This document shows positions 418 to 63,530 of a stretch of 64,000 nucleotides of DNA, piece by piece. The notes below the pieces were generated by a model. It worked only from the letters and a program-made list of their open reading frames with translations, was not told where the DNA came from and made no database searches. How positions within the stretch are numbered: the stretch's first letter is position 1; every line of letters starts with the position of its first letter. Source of the DNA: Clostridia bacterium (GTDB lineage Bacteria; Bacillota; Clostridia; Oscillospirales; Acutalibacteraceae); the NCBI GenBank assembly GCA_017432485.1, contig JAFRJB010000078.1:1-64000 (forward strand), read 5' to 3'. The translations under genes were made by a program, and so were the position numbers.

Positions 418-445
418 TTGACATTCATATCAAGTATGATATAAT
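418..445 (+). promoter_or_regulatory. Sigma-A promoter of the LexA-controlled small RNA
   Basis: A perfect TTGACA (418-423) and a perfect TATAAT (440-445) are separated by 16 bases. The LexA box starts six bases after the -10, so it would cover the transcription start. Confidence 0.8.
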
Positions 446-450
446 CTAAT

Positions 451-470
451 TATCGAACATTTGTTCGATA
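451..470 (+). promoter_or_regulatory. LexA (SOS) operator
   Basis: CGAACATTTGTTCG (454-467) matches the Gram-positive SOS-box pattern CGAAC-N4-GTTCG. It sits in a wider near-perfect palindrome, 451-470. Its position just downstream of a consensus -10 is that of a repressing operator, so the transcript should be induced by DNA damage. No lexA gene is in the window. Confidence 0.85.
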
Positions 471-566
471 GGCAAACAATAGTTTGCGAGAGAGAATCGT
501 CCACGCATCCGTGAACATGCGAGTAAAGGGTAGGCTTCTATTTATATAGAGCCTACCCTTTTGTTT
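471..566 (+). ncRNA. SOS-controlled small structured RNA with intrinsic terminator
   Basis: After the LexA box the transcript contains no credible gene. It holds a hairpin GCAAAC-aata-GTTTGC (472-487), a second CGCAT/ATGCG stem (504-521) and a strong terminator hairpin with 11-bp arms (525-535 with 551-561) followed by a T-rich run. Predicted length is about 95 nt. A 10-codon ORF at 517 lacks a ribosome site and runs through the terminator stem, so it is probably not translated. Function is unknown; SOS-induced small RNAs or type I toxin modules are possible analogies. Confidence 0.65.
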
Positions 567-798
567 AATAATTTTTGTAAAACTTTCTCACATCACCCGA
601 ACAAAACACCCCAAACAATTTCTATTTTATAGAGGGACTTTTTCCCGCGCCCTTCGAGTGAACCTCTTCCCTTTTTTGTGTGACTCTTTTTGTTTTTATT
701 TGATAAAACTTTAAGATGTTTCGACACAATCCCCGAAGTTTTTACGCGAAGGTAGGCTATAGTTAAGGGCACTTATTTATTATTTCTTAGGAGAATAT

Positions 799-1089
799 AT
801 GATTACCGGACTGACCAAAAGAGAAAAAACCACCGAAATATTTTTTGATGAAGCCGGTGCATTCATCACCGTGCGCACCCACAATACCGACCTTAAAAAC
901 AGGCTAAGTCGGTACTGCAAACTCTACCCTGAAGAGTGCCGATTAGTGGCAAAGGATCGCGAAATCGGTCTGCTTGAATTTGAGATCAAAAAAGGAAGAT
1001 TATCCTTTCGTTTAACCGCACCCTACCCTGAAAATCGAAGAAAACAATTAAGCCAAAATGCAAAAAATGCGAACCACCTACCGAAATGA
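799..1089 (+). CDS. Small hypothetical protein of Clostridial mobile elements
   Basis: A 96-residue protein beginning MITGLTKREKTTEIFFDEAG, with TAGGAG seven bases before the ATG. It looks like a small soluble alpha/beta protein with a basic C-terminus; there is no membrane segment and no recognised catalytic motif. From memory, close relatives of this sequence are common as accessory genes in Firmicute integrative elements, which fits the serine recombinase 1.2 kb downstream. Its function is not known. Confidence 0.65.
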   Translation: MITGLTKREKTTEIFFDEAGAFITVRTHNTDLKNRLSRYCKLYPEECRLVAKDREIGLLEFEIKKGRLSFRLTAPYPENRRKQLSQNAKNANHLPK

Positions 1090-1794: not shown

Positions 1795-1921
1795 TGGACC
1801 GATTCCAATATGGCAGAGCCAGAATCAGAGAAAGGAACCGAGAACGATGCAGATAATCAATTTACTCATTTACAGAATAAATCATTATATAAAACCAAAA
1901 ATAACCAATAGAGGTGATTTT

Positions 1922-2182
1922 TTGGAATTAACAAAAGAAGATCTGCATGCCCTCAAGCAAGCGGATATTGAAACCATCAACCACAACAAACTCTATGATG
2001 TCAAAGAGTTGAATTTAAATATTTCCGAAGACATTATGCACCGCTCTCAGCGCTACTTTAAGCAGGTCAAAAACCCCTACACCATCAAAGTCGGGGATGT
2101 CGGCGTGAAGCTCAATTTCGGTGACGGCAAATGTTTGTGGGATTCGCTCATGGATATAGTGACTAAAGAGGAATGTCATTAG
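1922..2182 (+). CDS. DUF6870-like small protein beside serine recombinase
   Basis: The frame opens at 1847, but the only good ribosome site is GAGGTG (1911-1916), six bases before an in-frame TTG at 1922; that start gives 86 residues beginning MELTKEDLHALKQADI. The motif FKQVKNPYTIKVGDVGVKLNF matches, by recollection, the DUF6870 family of small proteins that accompany large serine recombinases in Clostridial elements. The recombinase lies about 100 bp downstream on the same strand. Molecular role unknown. Confidence 0.65.
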   Translation: MELTKEDLHALKQADIETINHNKLYDVKELNLNISEDIMHRSQRYFKQVKNPYTIKVGDVGVKLNFGDGKCLWDSLMDIVTKEECH

Positions 2183-2226
2183 TTGGCATCTATTACCAAT
2201 TGAAAAACGGAAGGTGGTGTGCTACA

Positions 2227-2268
2227 ATGGTCTTGCAGAAAATGATTACGCCACCTTCATCAAACTAA
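2227..2268 (+). CDS. Possible 13-codon leader peptide of the recombinase
   Basis: A short frame MVLQKMITPPSSN lies just upstream of the recombinase, with AAGGTGG nine bases before its ATG. That Shine-Dalgarno sequence (arm 2210-2217) can pair with CCACCTTC (2251-2258) near the end of the peptide frame, so translation of the peptide and folding of the leader are mutually exclusive. This could modulate recombinase expression. Translation is not proven. Confidence 0.35.
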   Translation: MVLQKMITPPSSN

Positions 2269-2287: not shown

Positions 2288-3994
2288 ATGACAGAAAAAT
2301 ACCAAGGATTATTAGAGCAACCTTCACAAACCAAAACGTGGAAGGTTGCTCTTTATATTCGCCTCTCGAAAGAAGACGGCGACAAAGGTGAAAGCTATTC
2401 CGTCACCTCTCAAAGAGAAATCTTAACGGAATACCTCAAAAGCCATCCCGACTTGGAGCTCTACGATACCTATGTGGATGACGGCTGGTCGGGCACCAAC
2501 TTTGACCGACCGGATTTCAAGCGCATGATGGAAGATGTGTATGAAGGCAAAGTCAACTGCGTGATTGTCAAAGACCTCTCGCGTTTCGGCAGGAACTACA
2601 CGGAATCCGGCAACTACATTGACAATGTGTTTGTGCGCCTGAAGGTGCGCTTCATCGCGCTCAACAACGGTGTGGATTCTTTTTCCAACACCATGAATTC
2701 TGCAACGCAGTGCATTGCGGTCGGTGTGCAAAATGTTATCAACGAAAGTGTGGCGGCAACCACCTCGGTGAATGTACGCGGCACGCTCAATGTTTCGCGC
2801 AAACAAGGCAAGTTTATCGGCTCCTTTGCGTGCTACGGCTATCAAAAAGACCCGCAGGACCACCATAAGCTTATTATTGATGAAGAAGCCGCCGAAATTG
2901 TGCGCATGGTTTTTAAGCTCTTTTTGGAGGGCAACAGTATTCTCAGCATCACCCGCGAACTTAACGCAATGGGCATCCCGAACCCGACGGCTTATAAACG
3001 AGAAAAAGGCTTAAACTACTCCGCACGCACCGGCTACAGTAATGACGGGCTGTGGTGCGACCAAACCGTGCGCCGCATTCTCAAAAATGAGATGTATATC
3101 GGCAACATGGTGCAAGGCAAAAACACCACCATCAGCTACAAAATCAAGCAGTGCCGCGCCGTGCCGCAATCGGAATGGATTATTGTTAAGAACACGCACG
3201 AGCCGATTATTGACAAAGAAACATTCTACAAGGTGCAGGCGCTGTTGAACAAATCGACCTTTTCCCGCACCTCCCCCACTACACACAAGGTGGACATCTT
3301 CGCGGGCTTGGTCAAATGCGCCGACTGCGGCAGAGCCATGAGCAAAAAGACCAACACCTTCAGCTACGGCACCTACCGCTATTATCGTTGCGTTTCCTAC
3401 AGCAAGTTCGGCGGTTGCTCTGCACGCTCCATTCGCTTGGATGTGCTTGAGCAAGCGGTTTTGTACAGTATCAAAGCCGTCATCGAAACTGCGCTGGAGC
3501 TGGAAGCCTTTTTACTGGAAGTGGAAAAGAAAGCCGCGCAGCTCCCGGAAGCCAATGTGCTGCAACGCACCATTGATAAAAAGGTTGCCGAGCGTGATAA
3601 GTACAAAAACATGGCGCTCAGCCTCTACCCGGATTTAAAAAGCGGGGTGATTTCGGAGGATGAATATGTTGCCCTGAAAGCAAACCTTTTGGAGAAGCAA
3701 AAGGAGCTCGAAAAATCAATCGAAGAGCTGCAAAGGCGCGGCAATAAGCCGGGCGAAAAGGACATGACACAAAATGCATTTTTGCAGCACTTCCTGCAAT
3801 ATGCCACCATCGATAAACTCACACGACCGATTGTGGTAGAGTTGATTGATTCCATTTATATTCACAAAAATAAAAACATCACCATCAACTTCAATTTTAC
3901 CGATGCCTATGCCGATGCACTCGACTACATCGCCGATGTCAAACGCAAAATGGCTGAGGAACTCAGCGGCTCACCCACAATTGATATTGCATAA
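2288..3994 (+). CDS. Large serine recombinase (TnpX-like site-specific integrase)
   Basis: 568 residues, the usual size for large serine recombinases that integrate and excise Clostridial elements. The resolvase domain spans about residues 18-165: YIRLSKED with catalytic Ser27, DDGWSGTNFDRP and VKDLSRFGRNY. A recombinase domain follows (about 180-310), then a zinc ribbon near residue 343 (CADCG ... YYRC) and a coiled coil at about 400-490, the DNA-binding and synapsis parts. All expected motifs are intact, so the enzyme should be active. GGAGG lies eight bases before the ATG. It is the likely mover of the surrounding island; attachment sites could not be located by eye. Confidence 0.93.
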   Translation: MTEKYQGLLEQPSQTKTWKVALYIRLSKEDGDKGESYSVTSQREILTEYLKSHPDLELYDTYVDDGWSGTNFDRPDFKRMMEDVYEGKVNCVIVKDLSRFGRNYTESGNYIDNVFVRLKVRFIALNNGVDSFSNTMNSATQCIAVGVQNVINESVAATTSVNVRGTLNVSRKQGKFIGSFACYGYQKDPQDHHKLIIDEEAAEIVRMVFKLFLEGNSILSITRELNAMGIPNPTAYKREKGLNYSARTGYSNDGLWCDQTVRRILKNEMYIGNMVQGKNTTISYKIKQCRAVPQSEWIIVKNTHEPIIDKETFYKVQALLNKSTFSRTSPTTHKVDIFAGLVKCADCGRAMSKKTNTFSYGTYRYYRCVSYSKFGGCSARSIRLDVLEQAVLYSIKAVIETALELEAFLLEVEKKAAQLPEANVLQRTIDKKVAERDKYKNMALSLYPDLKSGVISEDEYVALKANLLEKQKELEKSIEELQRRGNKPGEKDMTQNAFLQHFLQYATIDKLTRPIVVELIDSIYIHKNKNITINFNFTDAYADALDYIADVKRKMAEELSGSPTIDIA

Positions 3995-4125: not shown

Positions 4126-4146
4126 ACACAGGAAGGAGTGATTTTA

Positions 4147-4767
4147 ATGAGTTTGTTTGATTCTTTAGTTTTGGAATTTGGCTACAATGAGCCGATTCTC
4201 ACCAATGAAATCACTTATAAAAACTATTCCAAACCCTGGATTTATAAAGAAATGAGTAAACTTTGCCGCTCAGGTCGCATTGTTCATTTTGACAAAGGTG
4301 TTTACTATATTCCCACTCAAACCGCTTTAGGCACAAGTCGGTTAAATCCGCTGCGCGTTGTCGAAAAGAAATACATCAAATATAAAGAAAACACATTCGG
4401 CTATGTTTCGGGTCTTGCGCTTTTAAACAGTATAGGGGTCTCCACTCAAGTTCCTGCCAATATCGAAATTTTCACAAATAATGAAACCGCTATTGTCAGA
4501 GATATTCAGATTGGCTCGCAAAAAGTGACCCTTAGAAAATCTCGAACAAACATTAATTCCGATAATGTTGCTGTTCTGCGTTTTTTGGAAATGATGAACA
4601 CTGTATCCCCTTCTTTTTTTGATGAACACAATAAAGCGATTATTAAAGAATACATTTTAACTAATAACATTTCACGCAAAAGCATCACAAAATATGCACC
4701 GGTATTTCCTGACAGAGTGATGCGCAACTTAATTGAAAGCGAGGTTATTTATGATGTTGCACAATAA
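4147..4767 (+). CDS. abiEi: AbiEi-family type IV antitoxin / transcriptional autorepressor
   Basis: 206 residues from ATG 4147, which has GGAAGGAGTG just upstream; the GTG at 4138 lies inside that ribosome site. Residues 1-60 form a winged-helix domain ending FDKGVYYIP, the wing sequence typical of AbiEi/DUF6088 antitoxins, followed by an all-alpha/beta C-terminal domain. AbiEi counteracts AbiEii without direct binding and represses the operon. The stop overlaps the start of the toxin gene by 17 bases, indicating translational coupling. AbiE provides abortive phage infection and also stabilises mobile elements, which suits its place beside the integrase. Confidence 0.82.
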   Translation: MSLFDSLVLEFGYNEPILTNEITYKNYSKPWIYKEMSKLCRSGRIVHFDKGVYYIPTQTALGTSRLNPLRVVEKKYIKYKENTFGYVSGLALLNSIGVSTQVPANIEIFTNNETAIVRDIQIGSQKVTLRKSRTNINSDNVAVLRFLEMMNTVSPSFFDEHNKAIIKEYILTNNISRKSITKYAPVFPDRVMRNLIESEVIYDVAQ

Positions 4768-5650
4768 TAAAGAACTCTTTGAGCAAACCGTTTTAGCAGC
4801 TTCAGAAGCATTAAATATTGAATTGCCGATTGTTGAAAAAGACTACTATGTCACTATGTTTCTCAAAAAAATTGTTGAAAAACAGCCCGACATCGTTTTT
4901 AAAGGCGGCACATCTCTTTCCAAATGCTACAAACTTATTGATAGGTTTTCCGAAGACATTGATTTAAACCTGTTGGGAGAATCAAAACCCGGAGAAAGCC
5001 GAAGGAGAAAACTAAAAGCAAACATTGTATTCACCATTGAAGGATTTGGTTTTTCGCTTGTTAATACGGATCAAATTCGCAGCAGAAGAGATTTTAATAA
5101 ATACATTATTTCATACCCTTCAAGTATTTCTGCAAATTACCTAAAACCGGATTTAATTGTTGAAACCGCCGTATTCTTCCGTTCCTACCCGACTAAAACC
5201 ATGTCGGCTGACAGTTTGGTGTATCAATACCTAAAATCAAACGATTTTGAAGAACTCATTGAAGAATATGAACTTGAGCCGTTTGACATCAATGTGCAAA
5301 CCGCTGACAGAACGATGGTGGATAAATTGTATGCTTTAGGAGACTACTACTTAAGTGGCAAGACTGATGAACACTCCAGACATATTTATGATTTACATAA
5401 ACTATCCGAAATTGTGGAAATTGACGATTCATTCTTGGCGCTAATGGAACAAGTCAGAAAAGAACGTGAGCCTCATAAAACTTGCCTCTCGGCACAAAAC
5501 AATGTGAATTTATCAAAGCTTTTGCAAGAAATCATCGATTCAGAGGTTTATAAATCGGATTATGAGAGTAAAACATACAATATGCTCTATAAAAAGGTTG
5601 GCTATGATGAGGCAATTCAATCATTGCAAAAAATCATTAATAAAATCTAG
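4751..5650 (+). CDS. abiEii: AbiEii nucleotidyltransferase toxin
   Basis: 299 residues starting MMLHNNKELFEQ, with GCGAGG upstream inside the end of abiEi. The nucleotidyltransferase signature is clear: VEKDY (29-33), KGGTSLSK (51-58) and RFSEDIDL (65-72) supplying the catalytic acidic pair; a later YALGDYYL/DLHKL segment is also typical of AbiEii. AbiEii-class toxins transfer nucleotides, with tRNA as target in studied relatives, and halt growth on phage infection. Catalytic residues are intact. Paired with the preceding antitoxin as a type IV system. Confidence 0.88.
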   Translation: MMLHNNKELFEQTVLAASEALNIELPIVEKDYYVTMFLKKIVEKQPDIVFKGGTSLSKCYKLIDRFSEDIDLNLLGESKPGESRRRKLKANIVFTIEGFGFSLVNTDQIRSRRDFNKYIISYPSSISANYLKPDLIVETAVFFRSYPTKTMSADSLVYQYLKSNDFEELIEEYELEPFDINVQTADRTMVDKLYALGDYYLSGKTDEHSRHIYDLHKLSEIVEIDDSFLALMEQVRKEREPHKTCLSAQNNVNLSKLLQEIIDSEVYKSDYESKTYNMLYKKVGYDEAIQSLQKIINKI

Positions 5651-5662
5651 CAAATAACAGAC

Positions 5663-5698
5663 AAACGAGTGTGAAGTAAAAATACTTCACACTCGTTT
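5663..5698 (+). terminator. Terminator of the abiE operon
   Basis: Perfect 16-bp arms AAACGAGTGTGAAGTA / TACTTCACACTCGTTT separated by AAAA, thirteen bases after the abiEii stop. It should work in both directions. Confidence 0.85.
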
Positions 5699-5943
5699 AA
5701 ATTAATGCTTATTATAATAAAGCAATGCTAAAAAAGCAGAATAAATACCCCCTGCAAAGTTTTCATGCCGATAGAGCATCTTCCCTATCGGCAATGGTGC
5801 TTCTTATTTGAAAATGATTTCAAAATATTCTAATTGAATAATAATCCCTTTATTTTTATTTCAAGACATTATAAACAAAAAACAGCAAATTGCTCTTTTA
5901 TATGAGAAATATAAAATATTTTTTGAAAAATACACATATAAAA
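5699..5943. other. AT-rich intergenic stretch, no gene seen
   Basis: Between the abiE terminator and the next promoter there is only the imperfect palindrome GCCGATAG...CTATCGGC (5767-5794), echoing the one at 4004. No ORF of note. Confidence 0.6.
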
Positions 5944-5972
5944 TTGACTTTTGCATAATATAATGATATAAT
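5944..5972 (+). promoter_or_regulatory. Promoter of the AAA ATPase/RloB operon
   Basis: TTGACT (5944-5949) and TATAAT (5967-5972) with a 17-base spacer, about 20 bases before the start codon. Confidence 0.75.
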
Positions 5973-5991
5973 TTCGTCGGAGGTGATAGTT

Positions 5992-7200
5992 TTGATTTGT
6001 CAATTTGGATTTAAAAACTTTAGATCATATAAGAATGAAACCGTTTTTGATTTTCAAGCCGCTGCACTTTCTGAGTTCAAAAAATCACTAATTGAGAATG
6101 AAAGTGCTTCATCCTTGTTGCCTGTAAGTGTAATTTATGGTCCGAACGGCGGGGGCAAAAGCAATATAATTTACGCTTTATCTTGTCTTATTTCTACCGT
6201 CGTGAAACCAATTTACGATTTAAAAAAGAATCGCATTCAATATATTTCACAAACCGAAGTTCCTGTAGAATCTTTTTTATTTGATGATTGTTCCTCGGGT
6301 GAACCAACCGAGTTTAATCTCTACTTCAGAAAAAACGCCTATGAGTATAGGTACTATCTGGCACTTTCCAATTCCGGAATCGAATCGGAATCTTTATTCA
6401 GGAAAAAGCTCGGTGGAAAAAGGACAGCTACCATTTTTATTCGAGAAAAGAATAATATTGAGTTAGGTGCAAGTATTGATAAAGCAAGCATTAATAAAGA
6501 TGTGAACCCCAAAATGCCATATTTGTCATTCTTGTCAATTAACTATAATATTTCTGTTATTACAGAAGTGCAAGAATGGTTTGAATCATGTATTATTTCT
6601 GACTATTCAAATCCTAATTATGAAACCCTTATTCCTTTAATTGATGATAAGAGCTTCAATTCTTTACTATTCCATATGCTTAACGATATGGATATTGAAG
6701 TTACCGGTTTTCATTATGACAAGGAAAACAAAGAATTGTTCTTGACCCGTAAGATTAATGAATCAATATATTCACTTCCTTTCAGTAACGAGTCCGCCGG
6801 AACCAAGAAAGCTTTTGTTGTATTACCCTCAATCATCATTGCATTGAAAGAAGGGAGACTGTTAATAGTGGATGAATTGGATGCCAAGCTTCATCCAAAA
6901 CTTTTAAGATATATCATTAAGCTTTTTACTAATCCCAGAATCAACAAAAACCATGCTCAATTATTGTTTACTTCCCATGACTTATCCACAATGAAAAACG
7001 ATGTTTTTCGAAGGGATGAGATTTGGTTTGCCGCCCTTGGGAAAGACCTTTCCAGCGAAATCTACTCTTTATATGATATTCGAAAAGAAGATGGCAACAG
7101 AGTCAATAATAGTGCAGCATATGATAAGCAATATTTAGAGGGGAGATACGGTGCAGACCCTTATTTAAAATCTATGCTTGACTGGGAGGATCAAATATGA
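5992..7200 (+). CDS. AAA (OLD/AbiLi-like) defence ATPase, partner of RloB
   Basis: Start chosen at TTG 5992, six bases after GGAGGTG; the in-frame GTG at 5983 lies in the ribosome site. The 402-residue protein begins MICQFGFKNFRSYKNET, the conserved N-terminus of AAA_15/AAA_21 ATPases. Walker A is YGPNGGGKSN (49-58), Walker B LLIVDELDAKLHP near 289-300, then the LLFTSHDLSTM switch near 324. The ABC-like core suggests DNA-sensing ATPase activity. It overlaps rloB by four bases (ATGA). The pair matches the AbiL (RloA/RloB) layout; related ATPase-TOPRIM pairs act in PARIS and retron Eco8. Confidence 0.82.
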   Translation: MICQFGFKNFRSYKNETVFDFQAAALSEFKKSLIENESASSLLPVSVIYGPNGGGKSNIIYALSCLISTVVKPIYDLKKNRIQYISQTEVPVESFLFDDCSSGEPTEFNLYFRKNAYEYRYYLALSNSGIESESLFRKKLGGKRTATIFIREKNNIELGASIDKASINKDVNPKMPYLSFLSINYNISVITEVQEWFESCIISDYSNPNYETLIPLIDDKSFNSLLFHMLNDMDIEVTGFHYDKENKELFLTRKINESIYSLPFSNESAGTKKAFVVLPSIIIALKEGRLLIVDELDAKLHPKLLRYIIKLFTNPRINKNHAQLLFTSHDLSTMKNDVFRRDEIWFAALGKDLSSEIYSLYDIRKEDGNRVNNSAAYDKQYLEGRYGADPYLKSMLDWEDQI

Positions 7201-7847
7201 GTTTAAAACCTCCCAAAAAGTCAGATCTCGGCAAAGCATGGCTTTCAAAACGTTCAGGTAAAAACATTCCGATCTATCCGGAATACCATTTGATTGTTAC
7301 CGAAGGAACCGAAACAGAACCTTTATATTTTGATGCCATTAAGAGACGGATCAATTCCAAGTTTTCTGACAGAATCAATTTGAAAGTTACAGGTCGAGGA
7401 GAAAATACAACTTCCTTATTCTATTATGCCAAAGAAGTTGCTGAAAACGGTTCATACAAGCATGTTTGGATTGTATATGACACCGATGATTTTCCGAAGG
7501 ATAAGATAGACACCGTTAAATTATTGTGTGATGAAAGCAGCACCAAAAGCTGCGAATATCACGCTATTTGGTCAAATCAATGTATTGAATTATGGTATCT
7601 GTTACATTTCAGTTATATGCATTCCGATCTTCATCGTAATGATTACTTTCCAAAGCTTTCAAAACATTTAGGTTTCAAGTACCAAAAAGATAATCCCGAT
7701 ATGTTTAAAATCCTATTGCCGCACCTTAATACGGCTTTAAAGAATGCAACAAAGCTTGATCAAGACAATGCCGGGAAAATGCCATCTCAATCTAAGCCCG
7801 GAACAAAGGTATTCGAATTGATTGAAAGGTTAAAACCATACATCTAA
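7197..7847 (+). CDS. rloB: RloB-like TOPRIM-type effector
   Basis: 216 residues. Motifs LIVTEGTETEPLYF (about 32-45), WIVYDTDDFP (91-100) and SNQCIELWYLLHF (126-138) are diagnostic of RloB, which has a TOPRIM-like acidic constellation (E, then DxD). RloB/AbiLii proteins are presumed nuclease effectors triggered by the upstream ATPase; the substrate is not established. Translation is coupled to the ATPase by a four-base overlap, and a strong terminator follows, so the two genes form a closed unit. Confidence 0.85.
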   Translation: MSLKPPKKSDLGKAWLSKRSGKNIPIYPEYHLIVTEGTETEPLYFDAIKRRINSKFSDRINLKVTGRGENTTSLFYYAKEVAENGSYKHVWIVYDTDDFPKDKIDTVKLLCDESSTKSCEYHAIWSNQCIELWYLLHFSYMHSDLHRNDYFPKLSKHLGFKYQKDNPDMFKILLPHLNTALKNATKLDQDNAGKMPSQSKPGTKVFELIERLKPYI

Positions 7848-7878
7848 ACATACCGGAGCATAGATAAATCCACCTCAC

Positions 7879-7910
7879 AAAAAGCAACGCGGAATTCCGC
7901 GTTGCTTTTT
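7879..7910 (+). terminator. Terminator of the ATPase/rloB operon
   Basis: A perfect 32-bp palindrome with 16-bp arms AAAAAGCAACGCGGAA / TTCCGCGTTGCTTTTT, 31 bases after rloB; works in both directions. Confidence 0.88.
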
Positions 7911-8000
7911 GAAATCGATCGTATCGTACTACAACCACACTTGCAGTAAATCATTCAATATGATATAGTAACTGACATATCAACCACGAATGGAGAAAAA

Positions 8001-10397
8001 ATGGATATAAAAGAACTTGCAATTGAAAGCGCGGATCTCTATCTACAATATCTAAATGATAATAAACAAGATAAGGGTGTTCAAAAATATCAAATCAATC
8101 AAATAAAAAGAAGTAGAAATTCGAATGAAAAGCACATCTTTTATTTAGAGTTAGACAAAGCCCCGCATATGAATGACTCACTACAAATAAAAATAAAAGA
8201 TAAGTTTTTACTCGATCCTTCTGACAAGGAAAAAGAACTTATAAAACCAATCGAATGCAATAAAAAAAGAAAGATGATTGTTGTTAGTGTTGTTGACAGG
8301 TATTTAGATGTATTGATTCACGCTAACCCTTCTGACCTTACAATCATCAGTGATATGAAATTTTTAATCGAACGCGTTAGAAATTGGTACAATTCTTATG
8401 GAGATGACATTTCTTTTCCACTCCCCGGTCTTTCTACTGTCCCCTTCAACAATTCTCAATGCGTAACAGAACTTTCTAAAGAACAAAAAGAAGCAATATA
8501 CGGAATTCTAGCCAATCCGTTTACATACATTTGGGGTGCTCCGGGAACCGGGAAAACTCAAGTTGTCTTATCAAACGCTGTTTTATCTTACACTAAACAA
8601 GGGAAAAAAGTGTTAATCACCGCACCCACAAACAGCTCGTTAGAACAAACCCTTGAAGGGCTTCTTCCGGTAATGGAGAAAGCCGGAATTGATTACAATA
8701 AATATGTTGTCCGCCATGGCACGGCTTCAAGCAACTTTTCCGAAAAATATCCCGGTGTATGTGAAGACACAACCATTGATTCTTTGCAAAGTAGAATTAA
8801 TGAAACGGAGATTGATTTAATATTTCTAAAAAAACATGTTGCATTACAGCAATTTCAAGATATCTTTAAGAGCTTAAAACCGGAATTGGTTGCTTTATCA
8901 AAAGAGTATACGAATCACCAAATAAGTATCACCCATTTAGAAACAAAAAAATCAATATTGCTTGATAAAAGAGGTGAATCTTTAACTGCAAAAAAAGAAA
9001 AAGTTAAAAAGGAAGAATTCTTAATCCATAAATTAAAAAGAAGCGAAAACTCGATATTTAAACACTTTAATAAAAGAAAAACGATCGTCCTCAAAGAGAG
9101 TCTTCAAGATACAATTAAAACCATCGATCAATTGTGTGAAGAAATCGATACAATCGACCGGTCTTTAGATGATTTGCTTGATCAAATTTCGAAAGTGAAC
9201 GAATCGTTGCAAAAACGATCTGCCAACTTTGAAATGGGTAAGAGAGCGCTATTGTCAGCAGCAAATACCATCCCGGAGTTGTATGCAATAATAGATAGTT
9301 CAACCATTATCAATTTTTTAAATTGCGCTTCAGAAATTGACACATTTCTTTTAAAACACACTGAAGGAATAATATATCAATCAAACATTAATTCTTTAGA
9401 TACAAAAGAATGTGAGGCGCAGATATTTAAACTGAGTGAAACATTACACTATTACCAAGAGAAAAAGAAGACATTATCATTTTCTGCAAACCGTAAGAAT
9501 ACAGATGACTGCCTTGTGTTCGCCATCACCGTAGATAGCTTGTTGACAAAATATAAACCAAATGAAGATTGTTTTGATCATATTTTTTTAGATGAAGCCG
9601 GCTACTGTCCTCTAATAAAAGGCTGTACGCTCTTTGCTTTCGATTGCCCTGTCACGCTTTTGGGAGATCATATGCAACTACCGCCTGTTTGTGAAATGCC
9701 TAAAAAAGTAATAATGCAAGAAAACAATTGGCCTGTGTTTCTGTGGGCAACCTCTGCCATCTATGCAGAATATGCAATTGAAGATGATGTTAAAAACCTT
9801 TACCAATCTCTATATTTTAATCATAATGTCCCACATAAAACAATAGAAATGAAACAGTACAAACTGCTCACCACATACAGATTTAGTGATAGTTTGGCAA
9901 CCTTATTAAACGATTATCACATATACTCGAAAGGGTTTCGGGGACTACCAAATGCAACAACAAAATTATACTTTATAGATGCAAAACGAAGCAAACCACA
10001 AAATGGACGTACTAGCCAAGCTGAAGCCGAGGTGATTATAGACTATGTTAAAAAACACAAGTCTGAAAACATCGGCATCATTACACCTTATGTTGCACAA
10101 AAGGAAATCATAAAAAATAATATAAAAACAATTGGTTTCCCATTTGAAAATGTTCTCACAGTCCATCGTTCTCAAAGTAAAGAATGGGATACAATTCTTT
10201 TTAGTGTTGTCGATACAAACGATAAGTGGTTTATGGACTCACTTAATGAAAAATCCGGTGGCAAATTTATTATTAACACCGCTGTTAGTAGGGCAAAAAA
10301 GAAAATGATTATTGTTTGCGATTATAACTATTGGATAGGTCAAAAGAAACAATTAATCTGCAAGCTTCTTGAAAACGCAGAAGAATTAATAATATGA
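8001..10397 (+). CDS. SF1 (Upf1/DNA2-like) helicase
   Basis: 798 residues. Residues 1-150 form an unrecognised N-terminal domain. The helicase core has Walker A GAPGTGKT (about 178-185), a long coiled-coil insertion (about 255-400), motif II FLDEAGYCPLIKG (about 528), LTTYRFS, the TPYVAQKEII segment, HRSQSKEWDTILFSVV (about 720) and the terminal NTAVSRAKKKMIIV. This is the SF1B order of Upf1/DNA2-family helicases. ATG 8001 follows TGGAGAAA. Its place between an RloB operon and a primase-helicase gene suggests defence or nucleic-acid processing; alone it cannot be assigned to a named system. Confidence 0.82.
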   Translation: MDIKELAIESADLYLQYLNDNKQDKGVQKYQINQIKRSRNSNEKHIFYLELDKAPHMNDSLQIKIKDKFLLDPSDKEKELIKPIECNKKRKMIVVSVVDRYLDVLIHANPSDLTIISDMKFLIERVRNWYNSYGDDISFPLPGLSTVPFNNSQCVTELSKEQKEAIYGILANPFTYIWGAPGTGKTQVVLSNAVLSYTKQGKKVLITAPTNSSLEQTLEGLLPVMEKAGIDYNKYVVRHGTASSNFSEKYPGVCEDTTIDSLQSRINETEIDLIFLKKHVALQQFQDIFKSLKPELVALSKEYTNHQISITHLETKKSILLDKRGESLTAKKEKVKKEEFLIHKLKRSENSIFKHFNKRKTIVLKESLQDTIKTIDQLCEEIDTIDRSLDDLLDQISKVNESLQKRSANFEMGKRALLSAANTIPELYAIIDSSTIINFLNCASEIDTFLLKHTEGIIYQSNINSLDTKECEAQIFKLSETLHYYQEKKKTLSFSANRKNTDDCLVFAITVDSLLTKYKPNEDCFDHIFLDEAGYCPLIKGCTLFAFDCPVTLLGDHMQLPPVCEMPKKVIMQENNWPVFLWATSAIYAEYAIEDDVKNLYQSLYFNHNVPHKTIEMKQYKLLTTYRFSDSLATLLNDYHIYSKGFRGLPNATTKLYFIDAKRSKPQNGRTSQAEAEVIIDYVKKHKSENIGIITPYVAQKEIIKNNIKTIGFPFENVLTVHRSQSKEWDTILFSVVDTNDKWFMDSLNEKSGGKFIINTAVSRAKKKMIIVCDYNYWIGQKKQLICKLLENAEELII

Positions 10398-53707: not shown

Positions 53708-53734
53708 GAAAAAGCACCCATCGCTCGATGGGTG
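53708..53734 (-). terminator. Riboswitch expression-platform terminator
   Basis: CACCCATCG (53715-53723) pairs with CGATGGGTG (53726-53734), and five Ts follow on the minus strand. The CGATGGG at the end of the aptamer can pair with CCCATCG here instead, giving the antiterminator. Confidence 0.85.
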
Positions 53735-53744
53735 TTAATCATTT

Positions 53745-53829
53745 CCCCATCGCTCAAGCTTTAGCACCTTACCTTGCGGCAGGTTGCTGTGCGGTCAACG
53801 GGCTTGTCCCTCGCGCACTCTCTATAGGT
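53745..53829 (-). promoter_or_regulatory. SAM-I (S-box) class riboswitch aptamer
   Basis: On the minus strand the core reads GAGAGTGCGCGAGGGAC, AAGCCCGTTGAC, GCAACC and AAGGTGCTAA, matching the S-box consensus GAGGGA...GCCC...TGA...GCAACC...GGTGCTAA. P1 pairs CCTAT (53824-53828) with ATGGG (53746-53750), P2 uses TGCG/CGCA and P3 GGG/CCC. The 3' P1 strand overlaps the antiterminator, so SAM binding should cause termination before the amidohydrolase gene. Confidence 0.85.
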
Positions 53830-53861
53830 TTGTATGTAGTTTTTAAATTAACTCTGCTTTG

Positions 53862-63274: not shown

Positions 63275-63530
63275 TAAAAAAGCCCCTTTGTTCAAAAACA
63301 AAGGGACGAAAATATCGCGGTACCACCCTGATTGATTTACACAAGTAAATCCACTCTGCGAAGTTCTGACAAACTTCCTGCCAAGGTAACGGGGCAAACC
63401 GTAGCGGCTTACTCAATTCTGCCGCTCAGCTCCGGAACGAGACTTGCTAACCGTTCGCACCGCCTTACACCAACCGGCGGCTCTCTTTGCCGAAGGGAAG
63501 TTAACAATTAATTCCTTCATCGCTTTTTTC
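63275..63530 (-). promoter_or_regulatory. T-box riboswitch, probable leucine specifier
   Basis: On the minus strand the T-box core GGGTGGTACCGCG (63313-63326) lies upstream of a terminator (CCCTTTGTT/AACAAAGGG, 63284-63305, then TTTTTT). A stem I of T-box type precedes it (AAAGAGAGCCG, GGTTGGTGTAAGGCGG, GCGAACGG, CCGGAGC, CCGTTACCTTGGCAGG). The triplet at the specifier position appears to be CTC (Leu), just before GTTCCGGAG. Uncharged tRNA would stabilise the antiterminator and switch on the LeuA-like/ligase operon. Confidence 0.88.

Follow-up and report, generated by a model that had tools for sequence, protein, structure and literature searches.

A predicted LexA-controlled structured RNA in front of a large-serine-recombinase element in a ruminant-gut Clostridia genus

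Sequence analysis of a 64,000-nucleotide stretch of a Clostridia bacterium (the window) indicates that an element encoding a large serine recombinase very probably has at its front a promoter repressed by LexA and, behind this promoter, a structured noncoding RNA, here called R1. We regard R1 as a real, undescribed RNA family, whereas SOS control of recombinase elements is itself known. The promoter, operator and predicted RNA consist of the following features.

418 to 445, plus strand: sigma-A promoter TTGACA-16-TATAAT with an extended -10 (TG), matching the consensus at 12 of 12 positions
451 to 470, no strand assigned: LexA operator dyad TATCGAACATTTGTTCGATA, enclosing the box CGAACATTTGTTCG at 454 to 467, by sequence match
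452 to 564, plus strand: predicted R1 transcript of about 113 nt, with both ends placed from the promoter and terminator positions and the fold
472 to 487, plus strand: hairpin GCAAAC/GTTTGC from the RNA fold, missing in the homologous loci L027, L028 and L029
486 to 502, plus strand: conserved, mostly unpaired segment GCGAGAGAGAATCGTCC, the 5' part of the R1 core, containing GYGAGAG (alignment and motif count)
504 to 521, plus strand: conserved hairpin CGCAT-CCGTGAAC-ATGCG, with one pair altered on both sides in L027
525 to 566, plus strand: intrinsic terminator AAAGGGTAGGC.../GCCTACCCTTT plus T-run, with a 5' arm identical in 4/4 R1 copies (fold and alignment)

The box, the sole exact LexA box in the 64-kb window, lies directly 3' of the -10 element and overlaps the start site. 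When 100 random sequences of 64 kb were generated with a first-order Markov model, perfect sigma-A promoters occurred at a mean of 0.02 per sequence, and neither the joint occurrence of promoter and box nor a box with an A/T spacer was obtained. The fold of positions 451 to 566 has a free energy of -43.9 kcal/mol (z = -6.45), which none of 200 shuffled sequences equaled. Thus, the perfect promoter and the consensus Gram-positive SOS box at the start site described in an earlier note on this DNA are both present, as is the strong terminator (525 to 562). Of the three hairpins described there, the one at 504 to 521 and the terminator are conserved, but the one at 472 to 487 is not. The length given for the RNA, about 95 nt, needs revision, since a start about 7 nt past the -10 element would yield a transcript of about 113 nt. 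The "island edge" is an edge of the assembly, because the window starts at base 1 of its contig (64,643 bp), which leaves the divergent gene truncated. What is left of that gene, which had been read as ParB/Srx-like, is a 126-aa fragment that has no Pfam match (E ≤ 0.1) or NCBIfam match (E ≤ 0.01) and that matches three PHROGs of unknown function. The integrase reported nearby is a large serine recombinase located 1.7 kb downstream (2288 to 3994).

LexA control of the R1 promoter is a prediction that is well supported by sequence comparison. The source genome (G000; 2.6 Mb in 140 contigs) encodes LexA (PF01726, E = 6.8e-15), and its lexA gene is preceded by a LexA box with one mismatch. It contains nine CGAACN4GTTCG sites, which fit the Gram-positive LexA consensus (GAACN4GTTC type; PMC4234289), and seven of the nine have an A/T spacer. 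These seven precede recA and dinB (both assigned by eye), a YpsA-family gene (assigned by Pfam), R1 and three copies of another RNA, R2. The bare number of boxes is not enriched, since the reversed control also gave nine matches in G000, and it gave at least twice as many matches as the box in three of six congeners; the argument for LexA therefore rests on the spacer and on location rather than on the count. Two features of a Gram-positive LexA regulon were found, namely, an operator overlapping the promoter and the presence of LexA together with the same box at core SOS genes. The 27 boxes of the six congeners, which together with those of G000 include some near-identical pairs of loci from G000 and G002, were assigned to recA (five), dinB (four), YpsA-family genes (four), R1 (two), R2 (four), a variant of R2 (two), a third RNA designated R3 (three) and an apparent operon at locus L027 (one), with two boxes having no assignment. 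When the seven genomes from this genus are compared, the predicted LexA control, the noncoding nature of the RNA and the link to mobile elements, all proposed in the earlier note, are supported.

R1 occurs at four places (the window, G005:C120, G002:C51 and G002:C71). All copies in the searched genomes belong to one uncultured ruminant-gut Clostridia genus. In an alignment of the four copies, the core, unlike its flanks, is conserved: AGAGAGAATCGTCC-N-CG[CT]ATCCGTGAACAT[GA]CGA followed by AAAGGGTAGGCTTCTA is otherwise invariant in all four. Invariance beyond the needs of a terminator is seen in the unpaired segment, in the loop of the hairpin and in the 5' arm of the terminator, and the terminator loop and 3' arm differ among the copies. 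The small hairpin remains paired despite one two-sided change in L027; with four sequences only, this single covarying pair was matched by 144 of 500 shuffles. The covariation score of R2 was reached by none of 500.

Searching 398 genomes of the family and 394 of the order with the R1 model returned only members of the model and weak matches that looked terminator-like by eye, the strongest being in G178 (E = 5.2e-6) and G001:C46 (E = 9.5e-6). The latter was rejected as an R1 copy, as it shares the 5' arm of the terminator and lacks the core. A pattern scan of the genome contigs recovered three stretches, those of G005:C120, G002:C71 and G002:C51. The R2 model gave seven matches in the 398 family genomes, all of them model members or near-identical sequences, and thus no new copy. 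Viral contigs contained no match to two R1 patterns, to R2 or to R3, and plasmids contained no match to R1. A loose pattern combining box and motif matched three viral contigs in sequences that were unrelated by eye, and two phage matches covered just 43 nt of the promoter region; both sets were discarded. Rfam 15 contains no family matching R1 in the window, in which only a SAM riboswitch (53715 to 53830, minus strand) and a T-box leader (63299 to 63529, minus strand) exceeded the gathering scores. Likewise, no R1 match exceeded the gathering score in thirteen loci searched at E ≤ 0.5, three of which carry R1; below the threshold, a miRNA model matched one R1 terminator on its reverse strand, and a His leader model matched a different position in a second locus.

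The earlier note had recognized no credible ORF in R1, and a check for a conserved protein frame agrees with this. A 17-codon frame (...RERIVxxSVNxRxKGRLL...) is open in all four copies, which is the one point in favor of a small peptide encoded by the transcript. The codon changes in this frame are all nonsynonymous (none synonymous, and up to four nonsynonymous, the latter number being found with the most distant copy, L027), a stop codon directly precedes the frame in L027, no Shine-Dalgarno sequence was apparent by eye, and the C termini differ among the copies as they run into the terminator. A coding function for R1 is thus hardly credible.

Downstream of R1, the window contains the following features.

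590 to 691, plus strand: degenerate remnant of an R2-type RNA, with the 3' arm GACTCTTTTT retained at 682 to 691 (MAFFT, and blastn against G000:C49)
799 to 1089, plus strand: 96-aa ORF of unknown function, also present behind the R2 RNA at G000:C49 (ORF comparison)
1847 to 2182, plus strand: gene for a DUF6870 protein (PF21757, E = 3.1e-13)
2200 to 2228, plus strand: TTGAAA-17-TACAAT, probably a promoter belonging to the recombinase gene itself, within a long inverted repeat (promoter scan)
2288 to 3994, plus strand: large serine recombinase, with domain matches to Resolvase, Recombinase, zinc ribbon and DUF4368

An intact TnpW was not found in the window, which has the recombinase and the DUF6870 protein. 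Several other features were observed in this region. A conserved low-coding segment with hairpins (1063 to 1496), showing approximately 80 to 85% identity between elements, precedes the TnpW or recombinase genes. A MITE-like repeat (1519 to 1794), whose inverted ends are imperfect and 29 nt long, has many partial or near-full matches in each of the seven genomes of the genus that were searched. Beyond the recombinase, a defence-like cluster (4138 to 10397) encodes AbiEi/AbiEii, an AAA_21 ATPase with RloB (AbiL-like according to PADLOC) and an AAA_11/AAA_12 helicase.

Comparison of the window with G000:C49 (locus L093) points to exchange of the RNAs. The two loci share the promoter and operator, the downstream DNA and the 96-aa ORF, and the window has R1 inserted ahead of a degenerate R2 that no longer has a stable fold (z = -0.12). 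This arrangement suggests that R1 and R2 are interchangeable modules, and the window reads as a locus in which R1 took over the place of R2.

Across the genus, a LexA-box promoter that does not belong to a classic SOS gene mostly precedes a structured RNA ending in a terminator and then mobile-element genes on the same strand. The genes behind R1, R2 and R3 encode TnpW, large serine recombinases, a tyrosine integrase and actin-like partition proteins. Behind R1, on the same strand, L028 has TnpW (PF14202) and L029 a C-terminal remnant of a recombinase; similarity of L029 (at about 2152) to the chromosomal contig G000:C9 resumes approximately 90 nt past this remnant, which suggests that the recombinase marks the element's right end. 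TnpW and a recombinase follow R2 at L020/L022 and L105 (the TnpW match of L022 being weak and below the cut-off), TnpW follows it at L093, and a recombinase and a TnpW-like gene, with starts read by eye, follow it at L019; the R2 locus L021 ends at a contig end. The R2 variant precedes a tyrosine integrase in L024, and an AAA_25 ATPase and genes that look mobilization- or integrase-like by eye in L025. R3, which has a conserved terminator-like hairpin with CATGACAATNCGTCTGTTTTTCTG, is found at L026, L097 and L107 (boxes at 2566, 2575 and 4069, respectively), in front of actin-like proteins in the first two loci and of a serine recombinase in the third. At the R2 loci L022 (7630 to 7663) and L019 (9307 to 9340), the LexA dyad forms part of a longer hairpin of 15 bp with a T-run behind it, and the operator may thus double as a terminator for incoming transcription.

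Locus L027 has a distinct order, namely, the box, a small zinc-ribbon-like ORF, R1, a DinB-like polymerase (PF00817), PemK and a serine recombinase, the last located 3.9 kb behind the box. There, the stop codon of the ORF under box control is directly followed by R1, and 13 nt separate the end of R1 from the start codon of the DinB-like gene, so that R1 lies between two genes of an apparent SOS operon. The zinc-ribbon-like ORF has weak Pfam matches only, and a single weak match in 250 genomes made it useless for synteny. The DinB-like gene has no recognizable Shine-Dalgarno sequence, R1 alone preceding it (1107 to 1210 of L027).

The motif G[TC]GAGAG was found within 70 nt after the box in 3/3 R1, 7/7 R2, 5/5 YpsA-family and 2/4 lexA leaders, counts that again include some of the near-identical locus pairs, for an expectation of 0.0094 per 70 nt calculated from the background of the same loci. 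It was found after the box in none of 19 other loci (recA, 6; dinB, 5; R3, 3; R2 variant, 2; L027 operon, 1; others, 2). Among 30 loci of the family, five lexA leaders could be placed, and none of these showed it. Common descent of the promoters could account for part of this sharing.

How R1 may act is a matter of weighing several readings. The one that we favor, with less than even confidence, is that R1 is a cis-acting, promoter-proximal attenuator or insulator metering SOS transcription into the 96-aa ORF, the DUF6870 or TnpW gene and the recombinase. In undamaged cells, LexA would hold the promoter silent. Once DNA is damaged, RNA polymerase would start inside the operator, synthesize the R1 core and mostly stop at the terminator, and the RNA would accumulate. 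The conserved core would be the site at which a factor or an alternative fold sets the level of read-through; an alternative antiterminator fold was not found in R1 by eye. A cis role is argued by the fixed position before element genes, by the exchange of unrelated RNAs and by the placement of R1 in L027, which would suit an attenuator. The position of R1 is also compatible with that of a processive antitermination RNA of the canT, conAn or put type. Several observations weigh against simple read-through control. Four recombinases, including that of the window, have their own sigma-A-like promoter close upstream, a terminator-like hairpin (1326 to 1341) lies between R1 and the recombinase, and the distance between the two is 1.7 kb. 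In addition, recombinase promoters lie inside long inverted repeats (window, 2200 to 2295; L019, 10325 to 10410; L022, 8710 to 8792; L105, 1672 to 1755, minus strand) that differ in sequence between loci and that would fold beside the Shine-Dalgarno sequence in a read-through RNA. Fold-back protection is known from IS10, and the inverted repeats look like an arrangement of this type.

The earlier note had proposed a stand-alone SOS-inducible RNA. R1 indeed has the makings of a complete transcription unit with a strong terminator, but its independence is not established, as one of the four copies lies immediately upstream of the DinB-like polymerase gene and lacks a promoter directly before it, a placement that a cis attenuator fits at least as well. 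A trans-acting, element-borne small RNA, which would pair through GAGAGAAUCGUCC or the CCGUGAAC loop or bind a protein through GYGAGAG, is nearly as likely as the cis attenuator. The conservation beyond terminator needs, the occurrence of GYGAGAG in R2, YpsA-family and some lexA leaders, and the recombinase's own promoter all speak for it. Conversely, pairing of the R1 core with eight leaders (four of the element and four of SOS genes) was no better than that of shuffled sequences, of which 124, 197, 111, 81, 177, 171, 128 and 174 out of 200, respectively, did as well; for the whole R2 and two leaders, the corresponding numbers were 9 and 17. Furthermore, R2, which is unrelated to R1 apart from the motif, occupies the same position and is degenerate in the locus that has R1, a pattern more in keeping with action in cis. 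An arrangement of the IstR/TisB type was sought, and neither a toxin peptide, by eye among the short ORFs around R1, nor antisense complementarity to the four neighboring leaders was recognized. An improbable reading is that R1 and R2 are insulators, the LexA promoter and terminator shielding the recombinase from transcription of neighboring cargo genes and the RNA being a by-product. The terminators of both RNAs, the extended dyads of the R2 loci, the fold-back hairpins at the recombinase start and the large secreted-protein genes located directly upstream of several copies would fit, but this reading would explain neither the retention of an active consensus promoter nor why the R1 core is conserved beyond the terminator.

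Parts of this arrangement have precedents. SOS control of integrases and SCCmec recombinases, cis RNAs at mobile-element promoters and integrase attenuators are all known. A LexA box controls integron integrases (PMC3108266), and a 19-bp SOS box is described for SCCmec ccrC (PMC9728531, citing Liu et al. 2017). As in these systems, a module for site-specific recombination has a LexA box in its promoter region here; in contrast to them, the box would drive a structured RNA that ends at a terminator and lies 1.7 kb upstream of the recombinase, whose promoter is probably separate. Terminators and cis-acting RNAs near the starts of transcription units are described for Tn916 (T1 and canT), pLS20 (conAn), HK022 (put) and, in an exopolysaccharide unit, B. 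subtilis (EAR) (PMC11658703, PMC8955417). R1 would resemble these RNAs in lying near the start of a mobile-element transcription unit and differs from them in its predicted control by LexA. The integrase of ICEKp1 has a 5'-UTR stem-loop attenuator (PMC13023037), that is, a structured leader with a potential terminator, as here, but the promoter is that of a tRNA, and the abstract mentions no LexA box. A 2008 survey predicted 113 candidate small-RNA loci with LexA boxes across bacteria (PMC2527527). E. coli IstR2 also has a LexA box over a small-RNA promoter, whereas no toxin gene or tisB-like partner was recognized beside R1, and the clade is unrelated.

Some elements of the genus resemble Tn4451, with its TnpX and TnpW, in combining TnpW (PF14202) with a large serine recombinase containing DUF4368; TnpW follows R1 in L028, and it follows R2 in L022 (the weak match), L093 and L105. 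The tnpX gene of Tn4451 is driven from the circular joint, and we know of no LexA promoter with a structured RNA in front of it. A search of titles and abstract openings in the open PMC literature found no LexA-controlled structured RNA before TnpX-type recombinases. Relative to that literature, the combination of a LexA promoter with an exchangeable RNA at elements of the TnpX type is apparently new.

A wider proposal, which is possible but rather unlikely, is that R1, R2 and R3 are interchangeable LexA-gated cassettes fronting recombination, mobilization and partition genes, which would switch transcription in dependence on SOS or would serve as decoys for a factor recognizing GYGAGAG, the motif shared with lexA and YpsA-family leaders. 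In this way, DNA damage would govern the mobility of the elements and, at one locus, an error-prone polymerase through an RNA. The SOS control that is known for recombinases acts on the promoter. If the arrangement deduced here is correct, a modular RNA layer between the LexA promoter and the element genes would add control after initiation to the DNA-damage mobilization of elements in gut Clostridia and would offer a defined system for testing attenuation or small-RNA action during the SOS response.
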